Both the position numbers and the translations under genes were made by a program. The notes beneath the pieces are model-generated. The model had not been told where the DNA came from. It saw only the letters and a program-made list of their open reading frames with translations, and made no database searches. A stretch of 42,773 nt of DNA from an uncultured bacterium. Lineage in GTDB: Bacteria > Bacillota > Clostridia > Christensenellales > Borkfalkiaceae. Shown here piece by piece: positions 2,599 to 35,909 of the stretch (positions are counted from its first letter, which is position 1; each line of letters starts with the position of its first letter). The stretch is taken from positions 1-42,773 of the forward strand of contig CATKAP010000202.1 in NCBI GenBank assembly GCA_949746255.1, written 5' to 3'.

Positions 2599-2600
2599 TT

Positions 2601-4262: not shown

Positions 4263-4275
4263 CGGGGGGAGAATA

Positions 4276-6749: not shown

Positions 6750-6772
6750 TTTACTTTTCTTATGGGGCTATA

Positions 6773-9430: not shown

Positions 9431-9442
9431 ATAATCCGAAAG

Positions 9443-9483
9443 TAATCCACCGAGGCTACATCCTCGGTGGATTAGCCGTTTTT
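9443..9483 (+). terminator. Terminator after the truncated gene
   Basis: A perfect 13-bp stem (9443-9455 with 9462-9474, TAATCCACCGAGG and its complement) closes a six-base loop, followed after GCCG by five T. Confidence 0.75.
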
Positions 9484-9547
9484 AAAAGGTACCTCTTTAT
9501 TATTAATACGGCAAGCGGAAGTTGGTTTTTTTCTTAATCATTCTTAA

Positions 9548-9578
9548 AACGAACGGTAAAAAATAAAAGACGAACGGC
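9548..9578 (+). promoter_or_regulatory. Candidate LytTR operator, 21-bp direct repeat
   Basis: ACGAACGG occurs at 9549-9556 and again at 9570-9577, exactly 21 bp apart. On the other strand the first copy reads ACCGTTCGT, a full match to the LytTR consensus [TA][AC][CA]GTTN[AG][TG]; the second fits 8 of 9. The same arrangement precedes the kinase gene (14899) and the acylation cassette (17171). The strong promoter of this operon (9670) is about 90 bp downstream. A weaker TTGAAT at 9582 lies at the usual distance from the repeat but has a poor -10. Confidence 0.55.
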
Positions 9579-9607
9579 AATTTGAATTGCCGTTCGTCTT
9601 TTATTTT
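9560..9607. repeat. Perfect 48-base inverted repeat containing the operator motif
   Basis: 9560-9582 is perfectly complementary to 9585-9607, a 23-bp stem with the centre at TTTGAA. The downstream arm ends in TCTTTTATTTTATT, so in RNA it could end transcription coming from the left. It also places a third, inverted copy of the ACGAACGG motif (GCCGTTCGT, 9589-9597) beside the direct pair. Confidence 0.8.
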
Positions 9608-9669
9608 ATTGTTTTAGGGACGTTGAAGAGTCGTTTGTGCGCGCCTGTCCTCGTGAAGTCATTCGCCTA

Positions 9670-9699
9670 TTGAAAAAGGTGAACAGCATTTGTTATAAT
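9670..9699 (+). promoter_or_regulatory. Sigma-A promoter of the lipoprotein-GH3 operon
   Basis: TTGAAA (9670-9675), an 18-bp spacer and a perfect TATAAT (9694-9699) preceded by TGT, an extended -10. The leader to the TTG start at 9762 is about 55 bases. Confidence 0.8.
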
Positions 9700-9761
9700 G
9701 TAGCAGGCGTTGGAGATGTTATCCTACTTTGACGTACAACAACATTTTAGGAGGAGAAAAA

Positions 9762-11063
9762 TTGAGAAAATCAAAATTTGCGCTCGCGCTTTTGGTCGGA
9801 ACGTTTGTGGCGGGAAGCATTTGCGGTATTACCGCATGTACCGAAAAAGAACCTGACTCCACACCGCCGCCTGCAAGCGACGTAGTGCTGAACTTCGTAG
9901 CGGTTACGAAAACTTCGTGGGATGCGGATACTACTTTCGTTTCACCTATAAACGAAAAAGACTACAATCTCACCTACAACCTTTCACTCGACTTGAAAAA
10001 AGACAAGACGCTTAAATTAACCGGCGTTTGCAAAAGTGGCAGTGAAAAGACGCAGGGCGGCAATACGGGAGGAGGCCCCGGCGGTCCTGGAGGACCGGGC
10101 GGTATGCCGATGATGGTTGCGGAAGCGGAAGGAGGAGAATCCGAAACCCCGGCGATTACGGATTGGACGCCTTATAACTTTACAATGAACGGAACCTGGT
10201 CGGAAGAAGCCGGCTGGGGTTACACGGTAAAAATCGACAACACCACTATTAAAGTAGACTATGATTTGATTCAGGGCAGACATAATTTCTATTACTACAT
10301 TGCGCCCACGATCAACAATAAAAAAGCGGAGGAAGTACTTGTTCAAATGCAGGCAAAAGACTCCGAATACAGAAAGACGCTTGCAAGCAATTACGAAACC
10401 TATCATAAGAAAGAAAGCAAGTACGAATTATACGCCGGCGGCGATAAATCCAAGCTTAATATTTATCTTATGGAAGACAAAACTGTTGCTTCTTATTCCG
10501 GCAGCGGAAGTTCGCAATCGTTCAGCGGCAAAGGCAGTTGGTCGATAGACGAGGCTACTCACACAATGACTATCACTTCCGCAGGCAAGACTTATGTAAG
10601 CAATGACTTTGTGGAAGGCGTAGGATATCGCTTCTCGGGGTTATCGGCGGGCAGCAGCGGTCCCGGAGGCGGAAGTTCTACTATGACTGGCTTTGTTTCT
10701 ATGTCGGCTACCAAAAAGAGCAACGAATTGACCGATAAGGATTTCGAAGGCGAAACAATTCTTGCGCTTGCCGGAAAGGACGAGAAAACGCAAGACGATT
10801 ATACAATGGAAATCACGAAAAACGGTTGGGCGGTGCTTTACAACGCGTCGGGTTCGAGATTTGTGGTTTGCAAGTACGAAAAGAACGCCGAAGGTAATTA
10901 TGAAATTACATATGGAGAGAATAAGTTTACTTCGACTAAAACGGATTCTACCGTAACTTTAGTCATGGAGTTTACCGTAACTGAAAAAGGTTCTTCCAAC
11001 CAACCCGATACCGTTACCGAATACAATATTACGCTTACGGGAACGGAAGCTGCGGCAGACTAA
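9762..11063 (+). CDS. Lipoprotein of unknown function with internal beta repeats
   Basis: A 433-residue predicted lipoprotein. The N-terminus has basic residues, a hydrophobic stretch and a lipobox ending GITAC near residue 26, then a polar linker. The start is TTG 9762: an excellent AGGAGGAG (9749-9756) lies just upstream and the signal peptide begins here. The mature part has a Gly/Pro-rich, collagen-like stretch near residues 95-115 and about three similar segments, each with a DK(T)-hydrophobic strand and a GTW/GSW turn (NGTWSEEAGWGY, GKGSWSIDEATHT), which look like lipocalin-sized beta units. No known domain is recognised. It is first in an operon with a four-helix membrane protein and a membrane-bound GH3, so a surface role such as glycan binding is plausible but inferred. 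Confidence 0.72.
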   Translation: MRKSKFALALLVGTFVAGSICGITACTEKEPDSTPPPASDVVLNFVAVTKTSWDADTTFVSPINEKDYNLTYNLSLDLKKDKTLKLTGVCKSGSEKTQGGNTGGGPGGPGGPGGMPMMVAEAEGGESETPAITDWTPYNFTMNGTWSEEAGWGYTVKIDNTTIKVDYDLIQGRHNFYYYIAPTINNKKAEEVLVQMQAKDSEYRKTLASNYETYHKKESKYELYAGGDKSKLNIYLMEDKTVASYSGSGSSQSFSGKGSWSIDEATHTMTITSAGKTYVSNDFVEGVGYRFSGLSAGSSGPGGGSSTMTGFVSMSATKKSNELTDKDFEGETILALAGKDEKTQDDYTMEITKNGWAVLYNASGSRFVVCKYEKNAEGNYEITYGENKFTSTKTDSTVTLVMEFTVTEKGSSNQPDTVTEYNITLTGTEAAAD

Positions 11064-11072
11064 GAGGTAAGA

Positions 11073-11753
11073 ATGGAAGCAAACGAAAAATTACAAAAAA
11101 TGAAAAAAATCGGAAAAATTGCAAAGATAATTTCGCTTGTTCTTGCAATAGTAACGGTTTTAGTCTTAATTCTGTTTTTACTTATGCCGGCGACAGAGCT
11201 TACAATGGCGGGTTCCAACAGTAAATACAAAGACGGATACATTTATTTCGGCTGGCAAATGACTTTCCTCGGTTGCGGATATCCTCCTCTGGATATTTTG
11301 CATCTCGGAATAGACAACGTTGCGGGCGACTACGTTCCTACGGCTTACGACTTCGGATTCAACGCGGCTAGTTTTATGGGCTTGATTCTTCCTGTTTTGT
11401 CTATTCTCGTATGTTCTATCGTCGGAATGAAGATGAAAAACCGCGGCAAAGCCGTTTGTGAATTCGTAATGGCGGCGTCTATTCTTTTGGGCGGTATACT
11501 AATTGCCTGCGTAGGCGCAACGTCCGTAGATTGTGCGGTTAACCTTGGAACGGGAGTGGGATTCAAAGATCAATATCTTATACCCGCTTTGGCTGAAGGA
11601 ACTTACGTCACGCTTGCGTTTCCTGTAGTAACTTTAGTAATATGTATAGTCGTTGCTCTTTTAAAAGCGGCGCGCGGAGCATTCCTTTTATACCAACGTG
11701 ATTTTGCTATGAAGAATAAGGCAATGCGAACACCGGTTGAAGCGGCGGCGTAA
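11073..11753 (+). CDS. Four-helix membrane protein of unknown function
   Basis: A 226-residue protein with a basic N-terminus and four predicted transmembrane helices, at about residues 18-40, 95-118, 130-152 and 178-205. An external loop of about 50 residues after helix 1 is rich in Tyr/Gly (KYKDGYIYFGWQM), and a short cytoplasmic tail follows helix 4. ATG 11073 has AAGAGGTAAG before it, nine bases after the lipoprotein stop. No enzymatic motif is visible. The position between a lipoprotein and an anchored glycosidase suggests it belongs to a membrane assembly, but I cannot name the family. Confidence 0.7.
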   Translation: MEANEKLQKMKKIGKIAKIISLVLAIVTVLVLILFLLMPATELTMAGSNSKYKDGYIYFGWQMTFLGCGYPPLDILHLGIDNVAGDYVPTAYDFGFNAASFMGLILPVLSILVCSIVGMKMKNRGKAVCEFVMAASILLGGILIACVGATSVDCAVNLGTGVGFKDQYLIPALAEGTYVTLAFPVVTLVICIVVALLKAARGAFLLYQRDFAMKNKAMRTPVEAAA

Positions 11754-11787
11754 AACTAAATAAAAATATCAAAGGAGATAAGTTTTA

Positions 11788-14700
11788 ATGAACAAAGCAC
11801 AGAAAAAACTGATAACTATTGTCTCTGCGGTCGGAGCTTCCTTGCTCGCGCTTATGATAATAATAACGTCGGTAATGTATTCTATGCCCACGTATATGGA
11901 CCAGTTCCTCGGGCGCGGCAAAGAGCACGTAATTGACAGTAAGGGTCTTTCGGCGGATTACATAGATTTTAAAGCCAAGACTCAGAAGGAAGGTTACGAG
12001 ATTGCGAAATCCGCTACGGAAATGACTTCAGACGAAGGCATAATACTTCTTAAAAACGAAGATAACGTTCTTCCTTTTAAGAATGCGGATAAGAAAATCA
12101 CGATCCTAGGCTATTACAGCTGGCACAACAATATGTCGGGCGGCGAAGACCCCGCCAGCACAGCAGGCGCTATATCGCTCGGTAAAGGTTTGGAAAACAA
12201 ATTTAAAACCAACAAGGCTGTAAACGACTTATATTCCGCTACGGGCGTAAAAGGAGATTTCGCCAACCCCGAAACAGATCTTCAGAGCGCTGCCGGCACT
12301 TTCGCGGAATACAACACGGCTGTAGTAACTTTAAAGAGAAACTCTGGCGAAGGCAACGACCAAACCAAAGTTTTGCCCGGTACGGCGGAAGGCGGACGTA
12401 CGGGACTTACCATAAACAATGCCGAACTTAAACTTCTCGATTATGCTTGCAAAAATTTCAACACGGTTATTGTCGTTATCAACGCGGCGAATACTATGGA
12501 ACTCGGATTCCTTGAAGACAGATTTTTGGTTGACGGAAAATATACCGATCCTTATACCAATACCACTTACGATTTCAGCAAAATAAAAGCTGCTCTTTGG
12601 GCGGGATGCTGCGGTTCGCAGGGCGGTACTTCTCTTGCAAATATTCTTAACGGCGACGTTAATCCTTCCGGACACACTCCCGATATATATGCAAGCGACC
12701 TTAAAAAAGATCCCACTTTTGTAAATTTCGGCAGTTTCAGATACACCAACAGCGCTTCGCTTAATTCTTACAGCGACAATTCCTATTTCGTTGAATACGA
12801 AGAAGGCATTTATATCGGTTACAGATATCACGAAACGGCTGCGTTCGAAGCTGCTCGCAATAAGTATGCCGGATACGATTACGATAAAGCGGTAGTTTAT
12901 CCCTTCGGTTACGGACTTTCTTATACGACTTTCACGCAGGAATATGCGGAAACTCCCGTATATGACGCGGCGACACAGACTTATACTTTCAAAGTTAAAG
13001 TAACCAATACCGGCTCGGTAGCAGGTAAAGGCGTGGCTCAGGTTTACGTAAGTCAGCCTTGGCAGGAAGGTCAGGTTGAAAAATCCCATGTTCAGCTCGT
13101 AGGTTTTGCAAAGACCAAAGAACTTCAACCCAACGGAAGCGAAATTTTGGAAATCACCGCTTCGCGCGATTACTTCACTCCTTACGATTACAAGACCGAA
13201 AAAGCGTATATTCTCGACGCGGGCGACTACAAATTCTATGTTGCAAACGATTTAGACGGCAGCCACAGTTGGGCTACGGTTGACGCTGAAAGCGAAGCCG
13301 AAAAAGCTAAACACCTTTGGACTCATACGCTTGATAAAAAAGTTGTGTTCAGCGACGCAAAAGACGGAAAGCGTTCCACAGACCTTGTAACTGCGACCAA
13401 CGTGATGGACGACGAACTCAACTACAAATTCAAAGAATACAACGAAGGTTCCACCGGCGACGGTTTCGCGCATAACTTTACGCGTGCAAACTTCAAAGAT
13501 TCCTTCCCCACGGCTCCTACAGCCAAAGATTTGGAATTGACCGACGCTAGAGCAAAACATCAGATAGCTATATATGACGTTTGGGCGGATTCCGAACAGA
13601 ACGGCACCGATATCAACGGCAATCCTATTACCGAGACTCCTGAAGTAAACGTTGACGAAACAAGCTATACTCTTGCAGACCTGCGCGGCGTTCCTTTCGA
13701 CGACGAAAAGTGGGACGATTATATCAATCAGTTCACTATTGAGTCTATGGTGGCAATGTTCTCCAACGGCGGTTGGCAGGAAATTGCGGACGTGGATAAC
13801 GGTGTTCCCCTTTCTTACGACTTAGACAGCCCTTACGGCTTCTACGGACACGGCGTTACCGCGGTTAAGGACAACAACAAATGGTACTGCGGCGCTCCCA
13901 TGGTTGCTGCAACCTTCAATATCGAGCTTGCAAAAGCATTGGGCGAAGCGTTCGGCGAAGAAGCTTTCACTCAGAAACGTTCCGACGGAAAACCTCTTAC
14001 CGGTATTTACGGATTCGGTATGAACCAGCACCGTTCGGCATTCGGCGGCAGAAACTACGAATATTATTCCGAAGACCCTATCCTCTGCGGTAAAATCGGT
14101 ATGGCGGAAGCTTCCGGCGCGTCGGGTAAAGGACTTATATGCTTCATGAAGCACTATGTTCTTAACGACCAGGAAGAAAACCGTCAGAAGAACGGTTACT
14201 GCGCTTGGGTTAACGAGCAGGCTTTCCGCGAAGTATATACCCGCGCATGGGAAATATACATGAAGGAAGCCAAGATGACCGTTAAATATTACTCGGTAAA
14301 CGAAAACAACGAGTACGAAATGACTTCAAGAGTTATGTCCGCCGCAACAGGTATAATGACATGCTATAACCGTATAGGCGCAACTTACGGCGGCGCTTCT
14401 GTAAGTATAAACAAGATACTCAGAAACGAATTCGGTTTCACCGGAACGGTTGTAACCGACGCGGGCGGCGAACCTAACACCTACATGACGACCGACTTCG
14501 CTTTGAGAAGAGGACAGAACTTAACTCTTACGAACAACGGAAACAACTCGCTTTACGATGATAAGAGCGATACCGCTATCTATTGGCTGAAACGTTCTAC
14601 AAGACACCTTCTGTACAACAAAGCAAATTCCAACATAATGGTGGGAATTGCTCCCGGAGCTACTATCTATTATGATATGTCTCCTTGGCAGATAGGTATA

Positions 14701-14832
14701 ATAGTTGGCTGGGTAGTCGTAGGCTTACTTGTTGCCGGCGCTGTTGCTGTTGATTTGTTAATAGCTAAAAATGTTATTAAAGTCAGCGAAAAAGCGGCGA
14801 AACCTAAGTCGCATGATGACGACGAATATTAA
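11788..14832 (+). CDS. Membrane-anchored GH3 glycosidase, reversed domain order
   Basis: A 1014-residue GH3 enzyme (beta-glucosidase/xylosidase superfamily) expected outside the membrane. It has a transmembrane anchor at about residues 8-31 and a second helix at about 967-993, with a short acidic cytoplasmic tail. Domains run opposite to most GH3s: the alpha/beta sandwich comes first (about 60-385, EGIILLKNEDNVLPF), then fibronectin III (about 395-485, VKVTNTGSVAGKGVAQVYV), then the TIM barrel (about 640-945). The barrel keeps GGRNYEYYSEDP, KHYVLNDQEENR and the nucleophile motif GFTGTVVTDAGG with Asp891. Reversed GH3s are known from Ruminococcus and Butyrivibrio. The ribosome site is AAAGGAGATA at 11770-11779. 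The sugar specificity cannot be read from motifs. Last gene of its operon. Confidence 0.88.
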   Translation: MNKAQKKLITIVSAVGASLLALMIIITSVMYSMPTYMDQFLGRGKEHVIDSKGLSADYIDFKAKTQKEGYEIAKSATEMTSDEGIILLKNEDNVLPFKNADKKITILGYYSWHNNMSGGEDPASTAGAISLGKGLENKFKTNKAVNDLYSATGVKGDFANPETDLQSAAGTFAEYNTAVVTLKRNSGEGNDQTKVLPGTAEGGRTGLTINNAELKLLDYACKNFNTVIVVINAANTMELGFLEDRFLVDGKYTDPYTNTTYDFSKIKAALWAGCCGSQGGTSLANILNGDVNPSGHTPDIYASDLKKDPTFVNFGSFRYTNSASLNSYSDNSYFVEYEEGIYIGYRYHETAAFEAARNKYAGYDYDKAVVYPFGYGLSYTTFTQEYAETPVYDAATQTYTFKVKVTNTGSVAGKGVAQVYVSQPWQEGQVEKSHVQLVGFAKTKELQPNGSEILEITASRDYFTPYDYKTEKAYILDAGDYKFYVANDLDGSHSWATVDAESEAEKAKHLWTHTLDKKVVFSDAKDGKRSTDLVTATNVMDDELNYKFKEYNEGSTGDGFAHNFTRANFKDSFPTAPTAKDLELTDARAKHQIAIYDVWADSEQNGTDINGNPITETPEVNVDETSYTLADLRGVPFDDEKWDDYINQFTIESMVAMFSNGGWQEIADVDNGVPLSYDLDSPYGFYGHGVTAVKDNNKWYCGAPMVAATFNIELAKALGEAFGEEAFTQKRSDGKPLTGIYGFGMNQHRSAFGGRNYEYYSEDPILCGKIGMAEASGASGKGLICFMKHYVLNDQEENRQKNGYCAWVNEQAFREVYTRAWEIYMKEAKMTVKYYSVNENNEYEMTSRVMSAATGIMTCYNRIGATYGGASVSINKILRNEFGFTGTVVTDAGGEPNTYMTTDFALRRGQNLTLTNNGNNSLYDDKSDTAIYWLKRSTRHLLYNKANSNIMVGIAPGATIYYDMSPWQIGIIVGWVVVGLLVAGAVAVDLLIAKNVIKVSEKAAKPKSHDDDEY

Positions 14833-14866
14833 TATATAGTTTGGATTCGTCTTTTCCTCCTTATAA

Positions 14867-14897
14867 AGAGAGCGCGCACAAGAGTGCGCGCTCTTTT
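14867..14897 (+). terminator. Terminator of the GH3-1 operon
   Basis: An 11-bp perfect stem (AGAGCGCGCAC, 14869-14879, with 14884-14894) closes an AAGA loop. The flanking A and T runs extend the pairing. Confidence 0.88.
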
Positions 14898-14898
14898 G

Positions 14899-14927
14899 CC
14901 GTTCATAACGAATAAAAAGGTGTTCGT
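14899..14927 (-). promoter_or_regulatory. Candidate LytTR operator of the two-component operon
   Basis: GTTCATAAC at 14901 and GTTCGTCAT at 14922 are direct repeats with a 21-bp period. On the complementary strand they read ATGAACGG (14899-14906) and ACGAACAC (14920-14927), variants of the motif seen at 9549, 9570, 17171 and 17192. The second copy ends 10 bp before the -35 box of the kinase promoter, a typical activator position, which suggests autoregulation by the LytTR regulator encoded just downstream. Confidence 0.6.
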
Positions 14928-14937
14928 CATTTTAATC

Positions 14938-14966
14938 TTGCATTTCGTATACATTTATAATATAAT
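14938..14966 (+). promoter_or_regulatory. Promoter of the first two-component operon (near-leaderless)
   Basis: TTGCAT (14938-14943), a 17-bp spacer and a perfect TATAAT (14961-14966). The ATG of the kinase begins only 12 bases after the -10, so the transcript would start about five bases before the start codon. No ribosome site is present. Confidence 0.75.
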
Positions 14967-14977
14967 TATTCCGTACT

Positions 14978-16342
14978 ATGGCAGAAAAATTAGCAAGTTA
15001 TTTTAAACATATATTCGACTTTCCTTTTGCGTTGCAACTTTTATGTTATTCGGTTGTTACCGTGTTACTGTTAGGCGTAAAAGTTACGGAAGACGGTAAA
15101 GCCGAATTCAGACCGTTGATATTTGCCGCGGAATGTATTATTCTTGCCGCGGTTTTTCTTGTAACCGATTTGGTTGTAGCGCTTATCGGCGCGCCGTATA
15201 AATTTTATTTCGACCCGTCTTTCAAATACTTTATAGGTATTTTGTTGTTTGCCTTAATTCGCGGTAAACACAATTATAAAAACAGGATTGTAATGGGCGC
15301 CACGGCGTTTGCGCTGTGCGTTCTCATGGGCGCTATGGGAACGCTGTGCGGGCAGGCTATCGAGATGGCCATTCCCGCGTTCGATATTGCGGTCACGAAA
15401 ATCGGTTCTTACGTTTTAACGGTTGCGTGCGGCGTTCTGTTTTATATGTTTCCCGTTTTTAAATTCGAGACGGACAGATTCGACTGTATTATGATTACTA
15501 CGAGCAACGCGCTGTCCGCCGCCGTCTTTGTTATCTACGAATATATGCGCCGTTTTAATAAAGAGTTTATGACGGCAAGTTACCGTTTGATGCCTTTTGT
15601 ATCGGTAATTATATTGATATTGTTGGTAATAGTAATAGTTACGTATTTTATGACGTACTACATTTGCCGGGAGAAAGCGCGCAACCTTGCCTATGAAATA
15701 GAAAGACAAAAAAAATTGTCTTTGCAGGAATTGGTTAATCTTTCCGAAAGCAGGCTGGCGGAATTGAGAGAAGTAAAGCATGATGTTAAAAATCAGTATG
15801 CATACATGCGTGCAATGCTTGAAGAAGGCAAATACGAGGAGTTGAAAACATATTTCAACGAGCTGTTGGGAACGTTTGCCGTGCCGTTGTTCGAACAGGT
15901 GGACAGCGGAAACGAGATAATAGATTCGGTGCTTAATTTCGAGCTTGCGAAAATGAGAGAAAAGGATATAAAAGCGGATATACGCGTTTCCGTGCCGTCG
16001 CAGCTTCCGTTTAAAAAATCGAGTATCCTAACTCTGTTTGCAAACGTGATAGATAACGCCATAGACGCATGCGAAAGAGATAAACCCGAAAATCCTTTTG
16101 TAAGCGTGGTTGTAAACATACGCGGCGACCAGCTGTTATTAAGCGTTTCCAATCCTACGAAACTAAAGCAGGAAGATTTGGACGCTGGCTTGACTACCAA
16201 CAAAACCGATAAAAAGCGTCACGGTTACGGAATGAAAATTATCAGAAAGGTCGTAAGTAAATACAACGGATTTTACCGATGCTTTATAGAAGACGGTTTG
16301 TTTATATCCGAGTGTTTGCTGAGTATACCGAACGAAGTTTAA
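14978..16342 (+). CDS. AgrC-like sensor histidine kinase (GHKL ATPase)
   Basis: A 454-residue sensor kinase. About six transmembrane helices fill residues 15-225. They are followed by a short coiled coil, the dimerisation segment with the likely phosphorylated His268 (EVKHDVKNQ), and a C-terminal ATPase domain with the N box NVIDNAIDACER and G box KRHGYGMKIIRKV. This is the HPK10/AgrC arrangement, usually paired with LytTR regulators and often sensing peptides or membrane signals; here the regulator follows 16 bases later. No pre-peptide or AgrB-like gene is visible nearby, so the ligand is unknown. ATG 14978 lacks a ribosome site and appears to be read from a nearly leaderless transcript. 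Confidence 0.88.
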   Translation: MAEKLASYFKHIFDFPFALQLLCYSVVTVLLLGVKVTEDGKAEFRPLIFAAECIILAAVFLVTDLVVALIGAPYKFYFDPSFKYFIGILLFALIRGKHNYKNRIVMGATAFALCVLMGAMGTLCGQAIEMAIPAFDIAVTKIGSYVLTVACGVLFYMFPVFKFETDRFDCIMITTSNALSAAVFVIYEYMRRFNKEFMTASYRLMPFVSVIILILLVIVIVTYFMTYYICREKARNLAYEIERQKKLSLQELVNLSESRLAELREVKHDVKNQYAYMRAMLEEGKYEELKTYFNELLGTFAVPLFEQVDSGNEIIDSVLNFELAKMREKDIKADIRVSVPSQLPFKKSSILTLFANVIDNAIDACERDKPENPFVSVVVNIRGDQLLLSVSNPTKLKQEDLDAGLTTNKTDKKRHGYGMKIIRKVVSKYNGFYRCFIEDGLFISECLLSIPNEV

Positions 16343-16358
16343 TTAAAAAGGGGATAGT

Positions 16359-17108
16359 ATGATAAAAAGAACGATAAGCGTGGCGGTGTGCGACGATGAG
16401 GATAACGCGCTCGATATTATTTGCGGGTCGGTGAAAAAAGTTTTTTCCTCGCAGTCAATAGAAGTTTCTCCGGACTCTTTTAAGCGTGCGGACGAACTTT
16501 TAAAAGCTATGCAATCTAAAAATTACGGCCTTGTTTTTTTGGATATCAACATGCCGGGCACAGACGGTATAACTTTGGGGAAACGTATTTCCGCAATGAA
16601 ACACAAACCGGATATAGTTTTCATATCCAGCAATTCCAACCGCGTGTTTGAAACGTTTGTGGTTCAGCCGTTCGGGTTTGTAAGAAAGGAGAATTTTTTC
16701 TCGGATATAACGGGGGTAATAACCCGTTACGTTGCGCAGATGCAGAAAGCGGAAGAACCTTATTTACAGTTTGAATTAAAACAACACGGCAGTTATGTTT
16801 CCGTAAACGCCGCCGCTCTCGAATATGTTGAGTGTTTTAAAAATATGCAGATATTGCATATATCGGAAAGCGAAGAAAAAACAGTGTATTCGCGTATGAC
16901 CGTATTGGAAGAATTGCTGTCTTCGCGTGATTTTATCAGAATACATAAAGGGTATATAGTTAATTGCAGGTTTATAAAAAAATTTGAAAGGAATTCGGTA
17001 ATTTTGACTACGGGCACCGAGCTGCCCGTAGGGCGTTCAAAGCACGACTGTGCTTTGAACGCCTATCTCGAATACGTACATAAGAACGGAATATCCATTA
17101 TAGGTTAA
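16359..17108 (+). CDS. LytTR-type response regulator
   Basis: A 249-residue regulator with a receiver domain (about 5-125) and a LytTR DNA-binding domain (about 140-240). The receiver has the acidic pair Asp12/Asp13, the phosphorylation site Asp62 in FLDINMPG, Ser90 and Lys110. LytTR features include the region YVECFKNMQILHI and the motif FIRIHKGYIVNCRFI. The ribosome site AAGGGGATAG precedes ATG 16359. It should receive phosphate from the kinase upstream. I propose that it binds the 21-bp-spaced ACGAACGG repeats at 14899, 17171 and 9548: LytTR domains bind 9-bp direct repeats with this spacing. Confidence 0.92.
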   Translation: MIKRTISVAVCDDEDNALDIICGSVKKVFSSQSIEVSPDSFKRADELLKAMQSKNYGLVFLDINMPGTDGITLGKRISAMKHKPDIVFISSNSNRVFETFVVQPFGFVRKENFFSDITGVITRYVAQMQKAEEPYLQFELKQHGSYVSVNAAALEYVECFKNMQILHISESEEKTVYSRMTVLEELLSSRDFIRIHKGYIVNCRFIKKFERNSVILTTGTELPVGRSKHDCALNAYLEYVHKNGISIIG

Positions 17109-17131
17109 TAAAAATCTTAACTGTTAAAAAT

Positions 17132-17167
17132 AAAAAGCCCCTGCGTTTTATGGCGCACGGGCTTTTT
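17132..17167 (+). terminator. Terminator of the first two-component operon
   Basis: AAAAAGCCCCTGCG (17132-17145) pairs with CGCACGGGCTTTTT (17154-17167) with one mismatch and ends in five T. Confidence 0.85.
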
Positions 17168-17170
17168 ATG

Positions 17171-17199
17171 ACAAACGGGGCGTTTGCCGTGACGAACGG
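17171..17199 (+). promoter_or_regulatory. Candidate LytTR operator of the acylation cassette
   Basis: ACAAACGG (17171-17178) and ACGAACGG (17192-17199) are direct repeats exactly 21 bp apart. The reverse complements CCCGTTTGT and GCCGTTCGT each fit the LytTR consensus at 8 of 9 positions. The second copy ends only 3 bp before the -35 box, the position expected for an activator. Confidence 0.62.
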
Positions 17200-17202
17200 C
17201 TA

Positions 17203-17231
17203 TTGACCTGTTTTACGTGCAATGATATAAT
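17203..17231 (+). promoter_or_regulatory. Promoter of the surface acylation cassette
   Basis: TTGACC (17203-17208), a 17-bp spacer and a perfect TATAAT (17226-17231). It sits between the terminator at 17132-17167 and the first SGNH gene. Confidence 0.82.
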
Positions 17232-17274: not shown

Positions 17275-18729
17275 ATGAATAACAAAAATAAATTTATTCG
17301 CAATGCGGTAATAGTTTTAATATTGATATTTATTATACCCGTTTCGGTTTTGATAACGGGCTTTTGTGTTGCGCCTCAGTTTTCCGATACATATTACGGC
17401 GAACTGGGGGCAATGTACGATAAACTTATTTTTGCTAAGGGAAAAAAGATTGTAATTATAGGCACCTCAAGCGTGGCTTTCGGAGTGGATAGCGCGCTTA
17501 TCGAAAACGAGCTTAAAGCGGCGGGCGAAGAATATACCGTATGCAATTTCGGACTGTACGGAGCTATTGGCACGAAAGCTATGTTCGATTTATCGGAGAA
17601 ACATATAAAAGAGGGCGATATTGTTATTTTTGCACCCGAATTTTCCAAACAGACTTTGAGTTTATATTTTTCCGCAAAGGAGATTTTGCGTTCTGCCGAC
17701 GGAAACTTCGGTATATTAGGGGGGATAGCAAAAGAAAACGTTGCGGAAACTGTAGGTAATTTTACCGCTTTCGCCGCAGAAAAGTTAAAATATGCGCATG
17801 AAGGCGGAATAAAGACGGAAGGCGTATACGCGCGCGCTTCTTTCGATGAAAATTGCGACATGAAAAACGCCGAACGCACAGGCAATATTATGCAGGAAGG
17901 CTATATTCCCGATCAGCTTATAACTCTTTCGGGAGAGTTGTTTCCTGAATCGTTTATTAATTATATAAACGATTATGCTTCCGTAGTACGTAGAAAGGGC
18001 GGTAAAACTTATTTTACTTACCCGCCGATGAATCGACTTGCTTTAACCGACTGTTCGGAAACTACGCTTGAAAAATTTTATAATTTTATTTCCGCAAAAT
18101 TGGATTATAAAGTGATAAGCAACGCGGAAAAGTATATTATGGACGCGGAATGGTTTTACGATACCAATTATCATTTAAATTCGGCGGGGATGACGGTTCG
18201 TAGTATCAATCTTCTGGAAGATATAAAAAACGAGTTGGGCGTATTTACGCATACGCAGGCGCAAATGCCCGAAAAACCTCCGCTTCAAATACCCGAAAAA
18301 CCTTCCGAAGATAAAGGGGACGATTCCGACGCGGACTGTTTTGAATATTCCGACGACGGTAAAGGCGGATTGATTGTTGCCGCGCTTAAGGAGAGCGGGA
18401 AAACCCGCGACAGGTTAACGGTGCCTTATTCCTATGGGGGAAAGAAAATAACGTCGCTTGCGGTTGGAGTTTTTGCCGGCGACGAAGTTTTAAAGGAAGT
18501 TGTAATTCAGGATAACATCCGTTACTTGCGCGACGGCAGTTTTTCGGGATGTAAAAAGCTCGAAAAAATTATTTTAAGGCATACGTCGCCTTCTCAGGTA
18601 GGGGTAAGTTACGGATTACTTGAAAATACCGCAGCCTCCGTATTTATTAGGAAAAGCGCTTTTTCGGCATTCAGTACCGATTATACTTGGGGTTGGTATG
18701 CGGATAGGATGGTGAGCTATGAAGTTTAA
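17275..18729 (+). CDS. Membrane-anchored SGNH/DltD-like protein with C-terminal BspA-like repeats
   Basis: A 484-residue protein. One N-terminal transmembrane helix (about 9-30) puts the rest outside. The SGNH hydrolase-like domain (about 55-320) has block I IGTSSVAFGVDS with Ser65/Ser66 as nucleophile candidates, and the Asp-His block DTNYHLN (Asp296, His300), as in DltD and AlgJ/AlgX partners of MBOAT acyltransferases. A Pro/Lys linker (about 322-345) leads to a BspA-like leucine-rich segment (about 355-480, ITSLAVGVFAGDEVL). I chose ATG 17275, which directly precedes the anchor; the ribosome site there is weak (CGGAA). An in-frame GTG at 17248 is an alternative. First gene of the cassette, overlapping the next by 11 bases. 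Function inferred: transfer or removal of an acyl group on a surface polymer. Confidence 0.72.
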   Translation: MNNKNKFIRNAVIVLILIFIIPVSVLITGFCVAPQFSDTYYGELGAMYDKLIFAKGKKIVIIGTSSVAFGVDSALIENELKAAGEEYTVCNFGLYGAIGTKAMFDLSEKHIKEGDIVIFAPEFSKQTLSLYFSAKEILRSADGNFGILGGIAKENVAETVGNFTAFAAEKLKYAHEGGIKTEGVYARASFDENCDMKNAERTGNIMQEGYIPDQLITLSGELFPESFINYINDYASVVRRKGGKTYFTYPPMNRLALTDCSETTLEKFYNFISAKLDYKVISNAEKYIMDAEWFYDTNYHLNSAGMTVRSINLLEDIKNELGVFTHTQAQMPEKPPLQIPEKPSEDKGDDSDADCFEYSDDGKGGLIVAALKESGKTRDRLTVPYSYGGKKITSLAVGVFAGDEVLKEVVIQDNIRYLRDGSFSGCKKLEKIILRHTSPSQVGVSYGLLENTAASVFIRKSAFSAFSTDYTWGWYADRMVSYEV

Positions 18730-20497
18730 AAAGTTATTTTTAATTTTACCGCTTGCTTTGACTTTGCTTTTTTGCGGATGCGCCGGTCCGGGTTTTACGC
18801 CGCAAAATCCTGATTCAATCAATGTTACGGTTGCGGACGGGGAGCAGTATTATTTACGTAAAAATACTTATACCATAGACCGCGGCTCGGATTTAACGGT
18901 GACTTTGGTATTCAGAAAAGGTTATATTCCCGAAGGTTGTTCGTATGGGAATTACAAGGTTATCAAAATTTCACCCAACGAATACAGTTTAACGCTTTTC
19001 GGAATCAGATATCCGGAATTTATAAAGGTGGGAGAAGCTAACGCTGACGAGGCTGTAAGATATTATGCCAACGGCGGAGAATATACGGGTGAAAAACCCG
19101 TTGAAGGTTACATAAAAGGCAAAATTTCAAAGTCGCATATTCGTACAAATTCCGATTTGGGTTTGAATATTGAAAGGAAGGGATATGTTCAGACGGGATG
19201 GAACAGGCATCCCGACGGAAGCGGCGAGCACATAGGCTTGGGAAGCCGGTTTTCTGTAAACGCGGAGGGTGCTACAAAACTTTTCGCCGAATGGGAACAA
19301 GTTACCGACGATCAATTTTTCGAGTACGAAAAGGAAAACGGTAAGGCGTACCTTACTTCTTATATCGGCGATAAAAACATAGATAAATTGGTGTTGCCGT
19401 ACGAAATGGGCGATTGTCCCGTTTCAGGCGTTAAGTCGGGATTTTGCGACGGAGTTACGGCGGAAAATATCGTAATTCCCAAAACCGTAAAAACGGCGGA
19501 AGACGGCGCTTTTACAAACTGTAAAATAAGTAATTTATTCTTTTTCGATTCTCTTTCAAATATAAGAGACGAAAGTTTTGCCGGCAGCGAAATAGGAAAA
19601 GTGCATATAAACGCCGCAAGTTACCCGCGCTATCAGTCGGATACGGAAATTTCGTACTTCGCCGACGCTGTAGACAGGCTTATATTCTTAAAAGATAAAA
19701 AGAAAATGATATTTTTTTCCGGTTGCAGTTTTGCATACGGCTTAAATTCGCCTATGGTTGCAAAAGCGGTCGGAAACAGGTATCGAATCATAAATATGGG
19801 CATTATAGGCGGAACAAACGCCGGTTTTCAATTTGATATAATTTCCAATTTTGTGGACGACGGCGACGTTTTGATACACGCGCCCGAAGCTGCCAGCCAG
19901 TTTCAACTCATGGCGAACAATTCTGCCGAAACTAGAATGTTTGTCGTTACGGAAGGCAATTACGATTTGCTTTCTTTGGTAAACGTTTCAAGATTAAAGG
20001 GGTTTTTTAGAAGTTTTTCCGTTTACTGTAAAAACAGAGCCGAGCTCGAACCCGAAAGTTATGAAGAAACTCTGGGCGTTTATAACGAATTCGGAGACAT
20101 TATAAAGCCGCGTGAATTTACGGGAGAAAACAAGGCGTTTACCGAAGATTTCAGTTATACGTTTAAGCCCGATTTTGTAAATGAAAAATCCGCCGACCTG
20201 CTTGCAATGTATTACGACGAACTGAGACTGAAAGGGGTAAAGGTGTTTCTTTCGTTTTCACCTATAAATTATCACGGTTTGCCTCCGGCGGATAGGGAGG
20301 CGCGCCGTTGGGAGCAATTTGAAAATAACGTAGTAAAATTTATTTCCGAAGAACATAACGTACCCGTTATATCTTCCGTTACAGATTTTGTGTTGCCCGG
20401 CAAGTATTTTTTCGATACCGATTATCACCTAAACGAGGACGGCGCAAAATTGCGTACGGAAAGACTTATAGCCGATCTTAAAGCGGCGGGAGTATAG
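18719..20497 (+). CDS. Lipoprotein with InlB-type and BspA-like repeats plus C-terminal SGNH domain
   Basis: A 592-residue lipoprotein with a signal peptide ending at Cys21 (LLFCGC). Order after the linker: beta-rich N-terminal region; an InlB/Flg_new-type repeat (about 150-195, RKGYVQTGWNRHPDGSG and KLFAEWE); BspA-like leucine-rich repeats (about 205-320); then an SGNH-like domain (about 325-590) with block I FFSGCSFAYGLNS (Ser337) and Asp-His block FFDTDYHLN (Asp566/568, His570). It is a paralogue of the gene upstream with repeats and catalytic domain in the opposite order. ATG 18719 has AGGATGGTGAG before it and overlaps the upstream stop. It probably works with the MBOAT protein on an extracytoplasmic glycan. 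Confidence 0.73.
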   Translation: MKFKKLFLILPLALTLLFCGCAGPGFTPQNPDSINVTVADGEQYYLRKNTYTIDRGSDLTVTLVFRKGYIPEGCSYGNYKVIKISPNEYSLTLFGIRYPEFIKVGEANADEAVRYYANGGEYTGEKPVEGYIKGKISKSHIRTNSDLGLNIERKGYVQTGWNRHPDGSGEHIGLGSRFSVNAEGATKLFAEWEQVTDDQFFEYEKENGKAYLTSYIGDKNIDKLVLPYEMGDCPVSGVKSGFCDGVTAENIVIPKTVKTAEDGAFTNCKISNLFFFDSLSNIRDESFAGSEIGKVHINAASYPRYQSDTEISYFADAVDRLIFLKDKKKMIFFSGCSFAYGLNSPMVAKAVGNRYRIINMGIIGGTNAGFQFDIISNFVDDGDVLIHAPEAASQFQLMANNSAETRMFVVTEGNYDLLSLVNVSRLKGFFRSFSVYCKNRAELEPESYEETLGVYNEFGDIIKPREFTGENKAFTEDFSYTFKPDFVNEKSADLLAMYYDELRLKGVKVFLSFSPINYHGLPPADREARRWEQFENNVVKFISEEHNVPVISSVTDFVLPGKYFFDTDYHLNEDGAKLRTERLIADLKAAGV

Positions 20498-20498
20498 T

Positions 20499-20744
20499 AT
20501 GGAAAATGTAGTGCTTACCAACCCCGTCGTGGTAATAGGATTTATAATTTCAATGGCGCTGTGCATATTTGCTTACGTCAAAAAGGCACATATTGCCGTT
20601 ACCGTAATTTCTATAGCGATTTTCGTAATTACCGCAACATATTCGTTACTCAAAGGCGCAGACCTTTACGACGTAGGAACGGTTTCCGTTGTGTTTTTCA
20701 TAATAAATTTGCTCCCATTATGGAAGAACGGGGGCGATAAATGA
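20499..20744 (+). CDS. Small membrane protein of the acylation cassette
   Basis: An 81-residue protein with about three hydrophobic helices (residues 8-27, 30-50, 56-75) and a short charged tail WKNGGDK. The ribosome site CGGGAG precedes ATG 20499, one base after the upstream stop. The end overlaps the MBOAT start by 4 bases, so it is tightly coupled to it. No family is recognised. By position it may be an accessory subunit of the acyltransferase, as small membrane proteins such as DltX accompany Dlt systems, but no sequence link to DltX is claimed. Confidence 0.75.
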   Translation: MENVVLTNPVVVIGFIISMALCIFAYVKKAHIAVTVISIAIFVITATYSLLKGADLYDVGTVSVVFFIINLLPLWKNGGDK

Positions 20745-22219
20745 ACTTTAACTCGTTGGAATTTTTAATATTTCTTCCCGCCGTGGTATTATTATACTGG
20801 ATTCTTCCTCACAGAGGCCGGTGGATACTGTTACTTATTGCAAGTTACATATTTTACATGAGCTGGAACATTTGGTTAATCGTGCTGATTATGATTACCA
20901 CGGTTACGGCTTACGGTTTTGCCATAGCTATAGAAAGAGCAGAAAGTTTAAAGTTGAAAAAGCTTTATCTTGCCTTTACCCTTATAATATGTTTGGGTTT
21001 ACTTGTATTTTTTAAATACGTAAACTTTATTTTGGAAAGCGCGGTCGGTGTAATACGGCTGTTTAATACGGAACAGGACGACATTATTTTAAACGTTATA
21101 CTTCCCGTAGGAATATCTTTTTACACCTTTCAAACGTTGTCTTACGTAATTGACGTTTACAGGGGAGATTTCAAAGCCGAAAAACATTTCGGTTATTTTG
21201 CTCTGTACGTATCATATTTTCCGCAACTCGTTGCGGGGCCCATAGAAAGGCCGCAAAATTTATTGCCGCAGCTCCGAGAGGAACATAAATTCGACGAAAA
21301 CGATATTCGCGCGGGAGGCAAGTGGTTGTTGAGCGGATTTTTCCGTAAGTGTGTGGTGGCCGATTTTTGCGGGATTTTCGTAAATAAAGTGTATGCGGAC
21401 TTGGGTAATTCAAACGGGCTTGCGGTTTTTGTCGCAAGCGCATTGTTTTTGGTACAGATATACAACGATTTTGCGGGATATTCCGAAATAGCTTTGGGCG
21501 CGGCAAGACTTATGGGGGTTAAACTTTCAAAAAATTTCGATAAGCCCCTTACTTCTACAAGTTACACGGAATTTTTCCGCCGTTGGCATATAACCCTCAA
21601 TCAATGGTTTATGCAGTACGTATATATACCTCTCGGCGGCAACCGTAAGGGTAAAGCATTGAAGATATTGAACACTTTGATAGTTTTTGCGCTTTGCGGG
21701 TTGTGGCACGGCGCAAGCTGGACTTTCGTTTTATGGGGCGTAACCGCGGGAATAATGGTAAGCGTTGAAGCTCTTTTGCGTAAGCCGTTTGCTAAGATGT
21801 GTGAAAAAGCCAAAATAGATTTGGAAAATCCGCTTGTTAAGTTGGTAAGGCAAATAGTTTTATACGTATTTTCGGCGGCGAGTTGCATACTGTTCCGCGC
21901 GCAGAATATCGCCGAAGCAGGAGTTGCTTTCAGACAAATGTTTACGGCTTGGGGTGCGGGCGAAAGTTATGTGTCTCAAACCATGTCGGCGTTGGGCATA
22001 GACGCTTTTCAAATTGTACAGCTTGCAATTTTCATAGTTGCAATGATATTAATTTACAGGTTGCCCCTAGAGAATAAAAGCGAGTCTTTGCCGTTGGCAA
22101 GGGAACGCGAGGCGGCAGGCATAAGTGTGTTCGTATACGGAATAATCGCAATAATGCTTTGTTGGCTGGGGTTGCTGGCTATGGGCGACGCCAGCGTGTT
22201 CCAGTACTTTCAATTCTAA
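20741..22219 (+). CDS. MBOAT-family O-acyltransferase (AlgI/DltB type)
   Basis: A 492-residue polytopic membrane enzyme that moves acyl groups from the cytoplasmic side to an exported polymer. Hallmarks: PVGISFYTFQTLSYVIDVYRG, YFPQLVAGPIER, IYNDFAGYSEIALGAARLMG, FFRRWHITLNQWFMQYVYIP, and the invariant active-site motif CGLWHGASW with His323. About ten to twelve hydrophobic segments are spread over the whole length. The ATG overlaps the stop of the small membrane protein (ATGA). It is the core of the cassette, with two SGNH partners upstream and an acyl-activating enzyme downstream. The polymer modified and the acyl group are unknown. Confidence 0.9.
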   Translation: MNFNSLEFLIFLPAVVLLYWILPHRGRWILLLIASYIFYMSWNIWLIVLIMITTVTAYGFAIAIERAESLKLKKLYLAFTLIICLGLLVFFKYVNFILESAVGVIRLFNTEQDDIILNVILPVGISFYTFQTLSYVIDVYRGDFKAEKHFGYFALYVSYFPQLVAGPIERPQNLLPQLREEHKFDENDIRAGGKWLLSGFFRKCVVADFCGIFVNKVYADLGNSNGLAVFVASALFLVQIYNDFAGYSEIALGAARLMGVKLSKNFDKPLTSTSYTEFFRRWHITLNQWFMQYVYIPLGGNRKGKALKILNTLIVFALCGLWHGASWTFVLWGVTAGIMVSVEALLRKPFAKMCEKAKIDLENPLVKLVRQIVLYVFSAASCILFRAQNIAEAGVAFRQMFTAWGAGESYVSQTMSALGIDAFQIVQLAIFIVAMILIYRLPLENKSESLPLAREREAAGISVFVYGIIAIMLCWLGLLAMGDASVFQYFQF

Positions 22220-22233
22220 GGAGGAAAATTGTT

Positions 22234-23715
22234 ATGAAACCTACAACGAAAAGTTTTTTTGAATATTTGCGTGAGTTTGCAGAAACGGACGGGGATAAAA
22301 GACTGTTTTTTACCGAAAACGTAAATTATACGGCGCGAATGGTTTTTCGCACGGCGAACGCTATAGCTTTAAATCTCCGGGCGCACGGCGTAAAAAAGGG
22401 CAGCGTGGTAGCTTTGCGCTGTACGCGCTCCATAGAAACGGCGCTTCACTTATTTGCTTTGCAAATTTTGGGCGCCCTTGCAGTTTTAACTGACCCGCAC
22501 GATAAAGTTTCGGATTTTTTAGAAAACGTGGGCGTGGATATTACCGCGGAATTTATTATTTCAAACGAAGGCAAATCTCTTTCGGTTGACGGTTACGGCG
22601 GTTGGGAGTTGTTTTTTAAAAACGGTAAACATGTTGAATTGGAAATTCCGGATCCCGATAAGGAATACGAAATTGTACATAGCGAAGTTGACGTTCGCGC
22701 GCCCGCAATCGTCGTTTTTACTTCGGGAAGTACGGGAAAAAGTAAAGGCGTGGTTTTAAGCCAGTATAATTATCTGAATCATACGCTTAACTATACGCCC
22801 GAAGCAAGTTATACTGAAAACGACGTGGCGGTAGAAAATTTACCTTTACATCACGTGTTCGGGTTGGCGCATATCATTAATCCCGTTATCGTCAAATACG
22901 AACTATTCTTTCCAAAAGAAATAAATTATAAATATATAACCGATTGTATTGAAAAATATAAAATAACCCGCCTTGGCGGCGTGCCTACTTATTTACAGGA
23001 AATGGCAGGCTACGTAAAAAATTCCGGTTTACAAATAAATTCGTTGCGCGTAGGCGTAATTGGCGGCGCGCCTTTGACGGTGGAGCAATTCAATTACATA
23101 GAACAGGCGTTGGGCTTAAAATTATTGCCCGTTTACGGCATGAGCGAGTGTATAGGCATTTCGGGTTCGGGCGAATACGAATCTCAGTATAACCGCGCCT
23201 CCACTGTGGGCAGGTTTTTACCTATGAACGAATATTTTATTTTGGATGGTAATAATTGCTGTGTGCCTAAAGGCGAATCGGGCGAAGTTTGCGTAAAATC
23301 TCCCGTGGTTGCGTGCGGGTATTATAACGATTCGGAAGAAACGAAGCTGTTGATCGACGAACAGGGAAGATTACATACCGGAGATCTGGGTTTTATAGAC
23401 GAAAACGGATTTTTACATATAAGCGGAAGAATAAAGGATATAATAATCCGTAACGGCAATAATCTTTCTACGGTGGAAATAGAACGTAAAATATTGTCGT
23501 TACCTCAAGTAAAAGGCGTTTGTGTAGTGGGGATGCCAAATAAAAAAGACGGCGAAGCGCCTTGCGCGCTGATAGTCGCCGAAACCGAAGCGGATTTGAC
23601 TAAAGCTTTAAGAAAAATAGAACTGCCCGTAAAAATTATTTATACCGATAAAATACCACTTACTTCCTCGGGTAAGCCCGATAAGCAGATCGTTAAAAAA
23701 ATGTTTGAAGCATAA
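22234..23715 (+). CDS. AMP-forming acyl-CoA synthetase-like enzyme (ANL superfamily)
   Basis: A 493-residue enzyme expected to activate a carboxylic acid as acyl-AMP and then probably as a CoA thioester. Motifs: P-loop VFTSGSTGKSKGVVLS (about residue 165), LPLHHVFGLAHI, YGMSECIGISG, HTGDLGFIDENG, the hinge RIKDIIIRNGNNLS, and the C-terminal catalytic lysine in PLTSSGKPDKQ. The full two-domain fold is present. LHHVFGL points to acyl-CoA ligases rather than to DltA. ATG 22234 follows AAGGAGGA (22218-22225); a longer frame would overlap the MBOAT gene. As last gene of the cassette it likely supplies the acyl donor. No carrier protein (DltC-like) is encoded here. Confidence 0.83.
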   Translation: MKPTTKSFFEYLREFAETDGDKRLFFTENVNYTARMVFRTANAIALNLRAHGVKKGSVVALRCTRSIETALHLFALQILGALAVLTDPHDKVSDFLENVGVDITAEFIISNEGKSLSVDGYGGWELFFKNGKHVELEIPDPDKEYEIVHSEVDVRAPAIVVFTSGSTGKSKGVVLSQYNYLNHTLNYTPEASYTENDVAVENLPLHHVFGLAHIINPVIVKYELFFPKEINYKYITDCIEKYKITRLGGVPTYLQEMAGYVKNSGLQINSLRVGVIGGAPLTVEQFNYIEQALGLKLLPVYGMSECIGISGSGEYESQYNRASTVGRFLPMNEYFILDGNNCCVPKGESGEVCVKSPVVACGYYNDSEETKLLIDEQGRLHTGDLGFIDENGFLHISGRIKDIIIRNGNNLSTVEIERKILSLPQVKGVCVVGMPNKKDGEAPCALIVAETEADLTKALRKIELPVKIIYTDKIPLTSSGKPDKQIVKKMFEA

Positions 23716-25068: not shown

Positions 25069-25097
25069 ATTATAAGTTTATAATTATGTAATGTCAA
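25069..25097 (-). promoter_or_regulatory. Consensus promoter of the alcohol dehydrogenase
   Basis: On the minus strand, TTGACA (25097-25092), a 17-bp spacer and TATAAT (25074-25069). It is a perfect match in both boxes. Confidence 0.93.
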
Positions 25098-25139
25098 GTG
25101 TATAGATATATTTTTATCGATATAATTTAATTGTTAGGC

Positions 25140-25168
25140 TTGACATAACAACTTATTTAAACTATAAT
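25140..25168 (+). promoter_or_regulatory. Consensus promoter of galE
   Basis: TTGACA (25140-25145), a 17-bp spacer and TATAAT (25163-25168), a perfect match. It is divergent from the dehydrogenase promoter, 42 bp between the -35 boxes. Confidence 0.93.
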
Positions 25169-35886: not shown

Positions 35887-35909
35887 TTGCGCTATATTGC
35901 GGGGCTTAC

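Follow-up and report, generated by a model that had tools for sequence, protein, structure and literature searches.

Putative LytTR operators kept in register upstream of a kinase–regulator operon and a GH3 glycosidase operon in an uncultured member of the Borkfalkiaceae

LytTR-type response regulators are best known from the control of toxin production, bacteriocins and quorum sensing. Here we describe a set of direct repeats in a 42,773-nucleotide contig (CATKAP010000202.1 of GenBank assembly GCA_949746255.1, referred to below as the window) from an uncultured bacterium of the family Borkfalkiaceae (Bacillota; Clostridia; Christensenellales) that very probably (we put the figure at around 0.87, on the basis of sequence comparison) act as LytTR operators of an autoregulated two-component system. 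The half-sites have the consensus CCGTTYGT and lie 20–21 bp apart, or about two turns of the DNA. They are read as docking sites for a LytTR regulator because related genomes have matching words at corresponding positions ahead of the corresponding genes, and because each LytTR gene found in the genome has a family 3 glycoside hydrolase (GH3) gene close by; the main claim rests on the first of these, the conservation of register. The most likely regulon has two well-supported targets, the kinase–regulator operon itself and an operon encoding a lipoprotein, a membrane protein and a GH3 glycosidase, with an acylation cassette as a probable third. The elements concerned are as follows (TM, transmembrane).

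9549..9577, reverse strand: putative operator pair (half-sites 9549–9556 and 9570–9577), reversed with respect to the operon, 121 and 100 bp before the -35 box
9560..9607, forward strand: terminator-like hairpin with a T-rich 3′ arm, made up of the 9570 and 9590 half-sites plus flanks
9590..9597, forward strand: half-site CCGTTCGT, 80 bp before the -35 box, head-to-head with the 9570 copy
9631..9638, forward strand: half-site TCGTTTGT, 39 bp before the -35 box
9670..9699, forward strand: promoter of the lipoprotein–mem226–GH3 operon, TTGAAA-18-TATAAT
9762..11063, forward strand: probable lipoprotein (the listed open reading frame (ORF) begins at 9729; translation is likely to start at TTG 9762, which follows AGGAGGAG)
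11073..11753, forward strand: 226 amino acid membrane protein (mem226), four predicted TM segments
11788..14832, forward strand: GH3 glycosidase with a predicted TM segment close to either end and its domains permuted (C domain, Fn3, N domain)
14899..14927, forward strand: putative operator pair of the kinase–regulator operon, forward, 39 and 18 bp before the -35 box
14938..14966, forward strand: kinase–regulator promoter, TTGCAT-17-TATAAT
14941..14948, forward strand: third phased half-site CATTTCGT, overlapping the -35 box of the kinase operon
14978..16342, forward strand: sensor histidine kinase, six predicted TM segments, HATPase_c_5 (GHKL)
16359..17108, forward strand: response regulator, receiver and LytTR domains
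17171..17199, reverse strand: putative operator pair of the acylation cassette, reversed, 3 bp before the -35 box
17203..17231, forward strand: acylation-cassette promoter, TTGACC-17-TATAAT
17275..23715, forward strand: probable acylation cassette

The original prediction placed direct repeats at 9549/9570, 14899/14920 (in opposite orientation) and 17171/17192, and all three are indeed found there with a start-to-start spacing of exactly 21 bp. The half-sites are ACRAACGG-like. The 9549/9570 pair (ACGAACGG in both copies) has no mismatches, 17171/17192 (ACAAACGG and ACGAACGG) has one and 14899/14920, read on the other strand as ATGAACGG and ACGAACAC, has three in total and is the weakest. At up to three mismatches the window contains five matches, against 0.66 expected in shuffled sequence, the additional two being at 688 and 2685. 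Further half-sites, overlooked in the prediction, are the phased third copy at 14941 and the forward copies at 9590 and 9631; the hairpin at 9560–9607, which takes in the 9570 and 9590 copies, was overlooked as well. Of the window copies, that at 9549 (reverse strand ACCGTTCGT) fits the LytTR consensus cited in the original prediction, [TA][AC][CA]GTTN[AG][TG], in full and the rest keep the GTT core, with G or C in first position.

It was also claimed that in two cases the second copy lies 3–10 bp before a good -35 box. The distances are correct, the gaps being 3 bp (17199 to 17203) and 10 bp (14927 to 14938), and the description suits the box at 17203, which like that at 9670 belongs to a promoter with 11 of 12 letters in a consensus promoter scan. 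It does not suit the box at 14938 (TTGCAT, three of six consensus letters); this promoter is absent from the list produced by the scan and has a perfect TATAAT 17 bp after the TTGCAT. At the lipoprotein promoter, 92 bp separate the end of the 9570 copy from the -35 box at 9670.

Four loci encode close relatives of the window regulator: L121 (genome G218, 72% identity), L086 (G117, 56%), L122 (G282, 55–56%) and L087 (G085, 54%). The GH3, kinase and regulator genes are together in all four, as is a gene for a four-TM protein before the GH3 gene, and the lipoprotein gene is matched in three, the L122 contig ending near its expected place. Alignment of promoters in related genomes had been proposed as a check on the original prediction and bears it out for two of the three transcription units: half-sites are kept in register with the -35 box in four genomes for the kinase operon and in three for the lipoprotein–GH3 operon. 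Measured relative to base 1 of the -35 hexamer, kinase promoters in the window, L121 and L086 have half-sites at 39, 18 and -3 bp, and that of L122 has them at 37, 17 and -3, so that the third half-site overlapping the -35 box recurs in the same place in all three relatives; L087 has a half-site at 37 and a poor one at 17.

The arrangement at the lipoprotein promoter is more elaborate. Reversed half-sites lie at 121 and 100 bp in the window, in L086 and in a relict locus (L188), and at 120 and 99 bp in L121. A forward half-site at 80–81 bp is seen in the window, L121 (two mismatches), L086, L087 and L188, another at 38–39 bp is seen in the window, L121, L086 (three mismatches), L087 (two mismatches) and L188, and an additional forward half-site is present at 59–60 bp in L086 and L087. 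The relict belongs to genome G011, from the same genus as the window, and is located on contig C52 at around 18554. There the gene upstream is kept (87% identical), together with the operator region (reversed half-sites at 121 and 100, forward at 80 and 39) and the promoter; the lipoprotein gene is cut short, matching over 68 residues, and is followed by a different LytTR gene. A search of the G011 genome with the window regulator gave nothing stronger than about 1e-17.

When compared with dinucleotide shuffles of the same upstream DNA, eight of nine promoters, two of which are the window's own, gave P ≤ 0.0005, and the ninth (the L087 kinase promoter) gave P = 0.009. Seven of the eight orthologous promoters were covered, the L122 lipoprotein promoter being off the contig. 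Template positions were taken from the window, L086 and L087, with L121 and L122 fetched later, and the 2-bp tolerance at kinase promoters was fixed after L122 had been seen. The strict-pair result for the L087 lipoprotein promoter (P = 0.12) covered too short a region and is no test of that site. Taken together, the comparisons strongly support the reading of the sites before the kinase–regulator and lipoprotein–GH3 units as probable LytTR operators. They also favour the regulator at 16359, named as the natural candidate in the original prediction, a close orthologue of which stands beside the sites in all four loci, including at the promoter of its own operon.

A scan of the whole genome, also proposed as a check, told a different story. 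Across the assembly (1.96 Mb, 86.5% complete) the motif pairs are not enriched: allowing three mismatches gives 36 matches, compared with 29 when the pattern is reversed, and with ACRAACGG half-sites (the R at position 3 set partly from the 17171 copy) and no more than two mismatches the counts are 15 and 15. Genome-wide enrichment was therefore rejected as proof of function, the counts being not clearly above the reversed control, and since the pairs are not enriched, conservation was used as the test; frequency alone is no proof of function. Pairs without mismatches to ACRAACGG are found in the assembly only at 9549 and 17171, and there are two with a single mismatch: one at C335:4684, intergenic and before the GH3 gene of a paralogous module, and one in coding sequence on C258. 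Matches at a spacing of 23 bp are fewer than those at 21 bp (4 vs 15 in G000, 0 vs 6 in G085 and 12 vs 18 in G117), a deficit that we do not rely on because the reversed controls at 21 bp are also high (15, 28 and 22, respectively).

The pairs were also scored with a matrix built from 20 orthologue half-sites, none of them from the window. The three pairs at 9549 (25.8), 17171 (22.6) and 14899 (18.1) take ranks 1–3 among 21-spaced pairs in the window, with rank 4 going to 14920, which continues the phased series of the kinase promoter. By way of control, the best scores at eight other spacings in the window were 19.1 (spacing 18) and 18.4 (spacing 25), and the best 21-spaced pairs in 126.9 kb of other LytTR loci from the same genome scored 22.4 (C335:4684) and 18.2. 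The 9549 and 17171 pairs are distinct by matrix score. This test is not fully blind, because the window motif had been used in finding the orthologue sites.

The second strand of evidence is the company kept by LytTR genes. In the window's own genome the search turned up 10 LytTR and 19 GH3 C-domain genes. Each of the LytTR genes has a GH3 gene no more than 5 kb away and on the same strand (contigs C119, C151, C158, C166, C202 (two), C212, C219, C294 and C335). No more than 9.8% of the genome is within 5.5 kb of a GH3 start, giving a probability of about 8e-11 that randomly placed genes would achieve this, a figure that ignores gene clustering. The same proximity is seen for 9/9 LytTR genes in G218, 8/9 in G282 and 3/4 in G085, the misses being L161 and L168 (a 6.4 kb contig). 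Pooled across these four genomes, which were chosen for carrying the system or an orthologue (G117, with 20 LytTR rows, is outside this complete count), 30 of 32 LytTR genes are near GH3 genes, 29 of the 30 on the same strand. Across 19 genomes at least 74 of 149 LytTR genes are within 8 kb of a GH3 gene (counted with 150 of the 296 GH3 rows), against a random expectation of at most 25.9; one LytTR row (G117:C21:17291) fell below the cut-off and was excluded from this count. A GH3 match is present in 21 of 22 regulator loci, the exception (L076) being a 3.8 kb contig. Among ten relatives at order level, each represented by its best regulator match, two of the ten fetched stretches have a GH3 match, and one of the ten (L178) is a partial receiver match only.

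Direct repeats of this spacing are also over-represented near LytTR genes. Nine-bp direct repeats with at most one mismatch are found at spacing 21 in 17 of 146 intergenic gaps near LytTR genes, compared with an average of 4.1 across the other 26 spacings in the same gaps (sd 2.0, maximum 9); the 54 gaps lying further from LytTR genes have four at spacing 21 versus 1.2 (maximum 6). These repeats are not independent events, because the loci are related to each other. Four of the ten modules in the window's genome have a 21-bp repeat upstream of a promoter-like site, and the sequences differ between modules. That on C166 has CAAGGTTAC twice, 10 bp before a -35 box and ahead of genes leading to GH3; the remaining three are on C151, on C335 and in a second module within the window. 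In this second module a LytTR regulator–kinase pair (36027–38158) is directly upstream of a permuted GH3 gene (38324–41293), and its promoter region has a different 21-bp-spaced repeat, TACAACGTATTAT/TATAACGTATAAT, at 35907/35928. Permuted domain order is thus a feature of both GH3 genes in the window, with TM anchors predicted only for that at 11788. On C335 (L071), a sigma-70-family gene (935–1705) is directly upstream of the paralogous kinase–regulator pair.

The original prediction linked all three units in one LytTR regulon, and it is in the acylation arm that this falls short of the strength found for the kinase and lipoprotein–GH3 operons: here a near-perfect motif match and gene neighbourhood take the place of register conservation. 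The cassette opens with two related leucine-rich repeat (LRR)/possibly SGNH-type proteins of 508 and 592 amino acids, followed by an 81 amino acid protein with three TM segments, a DltB-like MBOAT protein (492 amino acids) and an AMP-binding acyl ligase (518 amino acids). The TTG start listed for the 508 amino acid ORF (acyl508) is the -35 box at 17203, and the real start is probably ATG 17275. The 81 amino acid ORF had been guessed from its dlt-like position to be a carrier protein, an idea that was rejected given three predicted TM segments and no carrier match. The acyl508 gene adjoins the kinase–regulator pair in 7 of 22 regulator loci (the window, L073, L075, L077, L089, L123 and L126), abutting or overlapping the regulator gene in L073, L075, L077 and L089, and lies about 9.5 kb from the pair in L091. 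This neighbourhood supports a probable functional link between the cassette and the kinase–regulator pair. At E 1e-20 no acyl508 match is found in G218 or G282, and the matches in G085 and G117 are on other contigs only; the unlinked G085 gene has one half-site upstream and no pair, and the upstream DNA covered for the G117 gene amounts to 31 bp. In L086 and L087 neither an acylation cassette nor an operator pair follows the regulator, which counts in favour of the operator reading, and the L121 contig ends about 195 bp after it.

A mechanism can be proposed. The membrane kinase (14978–16342) would phosphorylate the LytTR regulator (16359–17108), dimers of which would bind the pair at 39 and 18 bp and activate their own operon, and would bind the forward sites at 39 and 81 bp and the reversed pair at 121 and 100 bp to activate the GH3 operon. 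In this species the reversed 17171/17192 pair would be bound by the regulator as well, bringing the MBOAT/acyl-ligase cassette into the regulon. At that site the regulator might be an activator or possibly, because the site abuts the -35 box in reverse, a repressor. The 9570 and 9590 copies also fold into a hairpin, which may act as a terminator of, or an insulator against, transcription coming from the upstream gene.

A number of observations weigh against this interpretation. The -35 boxes were picked by eye, the strict 21-bp pair test fails at the L087 kinase promoter (five mismatches, shuffle P = 0.33) and the reversed pair preceding the L087 lipoprotein gene is poor. The 14899 pair is not distinct by matrix score when set against other spacings and for this reason rests on conservation. 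No orthologous copy of the acylation promoter was found among the loci compared, and the acylation arm is the weaker one because its site is seen in this species only, is reversed and is 3 bp from the -35 box. In none of the nine genomes scanned is the pair enriched over its reversed control. Of the 15 own-genome matches, 12 had their loci fetched, and seven of these 12 are coding (such labels reflect mechanical ORFs, and opposite-strand ORFs caused known promoter sites in L098, L108 and L097 to be classed as coding); L019 (C212:33051) and L023 (C214:29618) are further non-coding or partly coding pairs with two mismatches, and a zero-mismatch pair in G011 (C52:39601) resembles DNA that lies within coding sequence in G000 and G117. 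Counts of this kind, not clearly above the reversed control at two to three mismatches, speak for the idea that the pairs are chance resemblances in intergenic DNA, but the conservation of register in orthologues and the ranking by matrix make that explanation extremely improbable.

More serious is the idea that the 9549/9570 pair is a by-product of a terminator for the gene ending at 9430, with the other pairs being real operators or chance. The hairpin at 9560–9607 has a 20-bp stem, a T-rich tail and a z score of -8.56 in the window. In L188 two stem pairs differ and both changes are compensatory, the other differences being in the four-base loop, and the hairpin persists there with the lipoprotein gene truncated and no close regulator found. 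Against this, a terminator-like stem is already present at 9443–9474, the 9549 copy is outside the 9560–9607 stem, and L086 and L121 keep their reversed half-sites (121/100 and 120/99) with z scores of 0.07 and -0.85 (weak); the hairpin is not significant in L121, L086 or L087. A terminator-only reading is thus insufficient, given half-sites in register without a strong hairpin, and we consider it improbable, while a structural role is still supported. Part of the conservation of the 9570 copy may serve RNA structure, since this copy sits in a hairpin with compensatory changes, which also tells against an operator-only account, and the 9560–9607 element is probably best read as both operator and structured, terminator-like DNA. 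Less probable again is that the sites are bound mainly by a different LytTR regulator, such as the C335 paralogue (35% identical to the window regulator). The C335:4684 pair, one mismatch from the motif and the best score (22.4) in the other own-genome LytTR loci, would suit this proposal, but a close orthologue of the 16359 regulator stands beside the sites in all four loci. We therefore prefer LytTR operators of the adjacent kinase–regulator pair.

Other features of the window deserve mention. The probable lipoprotein (9762..11063) has no Pfam or NCBIfam match. Upstream of its operon, at 232–7762, is a galactose-type gene run encoding GH2, a major facilitator superfamily (MFS) sugar transporter, galactose-1-phosphate uridylyltransferase, a galactokinase-type kinase and aldose 1-epimerase, which may hint at a galactoside substrate. 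Two perfect TTGACA-17-TATAAT promoters are found in divergent orientation at 25069–25168, between iron alcohol dehydrogenase and epimerase-family genes.

What began as a motif spotted by eye is now a testable regulon, with an operator conserved across genera, a probable regulator and targets. The operator itself is of a known kind; its setting is what sets it apart, four genomes of a single family having GH3 genes beside LytTR genes in 30 of 32 cases, and our searches of the open-licence literature showed, among the papers listed, no description of a LytTR–GH3 link or of LytTR with dltABCD. Ten such neighbourhoods in one genome, some with different 21-bp repeats, offer a natural set for studying insulation among paralogous two-component systems. 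A more speculative suggestion, which we think possible if rather doubtful, is that the LytTR two-component system and GH3 form a self-contained, repeatedly duplicated sensing unit in this bacterial family, each copy with its own direct-repeat operator, in which GH3 (with a lipoprotein or four-TM partner) shapes or reports the kinase ligand. The ten copies would then be insulated glycan switches, a Gram-positive counterpart of the regulator-plus-PUL (polysaccharide utilisation locus) arrangement of Bacteroides.

How does this system compare with those already known? The cassette resembles the dlt operon in having a DltB-like MBOAT protein (TIGR04091 128 bits, below the cut-off of 375) and an AMP-binding ligase, and differs from it in that the small carrier (DltC) is not matched, an 81 amino acid protein with three predicted TM segments being present, and in opening with two related LRR/possibly SGNH-type proteins. 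For the operators, LytTR sites are described as two repeats of 9–11 nt with an 11–13 nt spacer and no common consensus (PMC4847170). Operons of LytTR regulatory systems (LRS, HdrRM/BrsRM type) are described as autoregulated, their promoters having 9-bp repeats that are for the most part separated by 12 bp and tend to lie 10 bp ahead of the -35 box (PMC6193735). The spacing seen here (21 bp start to start, or 20 bp in L122 and, with a poor second copy, in L087) agrees with the published one. Placement 8–11 bp before the -35 box is seen at the kinase promoter only (10 bp in the window, L086 and L121, 9 bp in L122) and not at the acylation promoter (3 bp, reversed) or the lipoprotein promoter. 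The window kinase promoter thus has both the repeat spacing and the -35 distance of LRS promoters (PMC6193735). LRS operons pair a regulator with an inhibitory membrane protein, whereas here there is a histidine kinase and a regulator with a receiver domain.

In domain make-up the system resembles AgrC/AgrA and VirS/VirR, which likewise combine a membrane kinase with a LytTR response regulator, here a multi-TM GHKL kinase and a receiver–LytTR regulator; the NCBIfam AgrC model gives 20 bits only against the window kinase. Direct-repeat operators upstream of the promoter are a further likeness: AgrA binds direct repeats as a dimer (PMC4227749) and VirR boxes are imperfect direct repeats upstream of the -35 box, on one face of the helix (PMC2838878). 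The differences lie in the targets, which here are a GH3 operon, whose enzyme has a predicted TM segment near either terminus, and, as a probable further target, an acylation cassette, and in the head-to-head array of half-sites at the GH3-operon promoter. No AgrD/AgrB signal-peptide genes were noticed among the window genes scanned, no search having been aimed at them.

A final comparison is with Gram-positive polysaccharide utilisation loci (gpPULs), defined by a glycosidase, a transporter and a regulator in one locus. The unit at 9431–17108 is without a transporter, an MFS sugar transporter being found upstream at 2562–4262. The placing of a regulator beside a glycoside hydrolase is shared with gpPULs as described in PMC5320581, where the Roseburia locus Ros-7 is listed with RR[LytTR] and HK (histidine kinase). 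What sets the present system apart is repetition, LytTR genes being found beside GH3 genes 10, 9, 8 and 3 times in four genomes.

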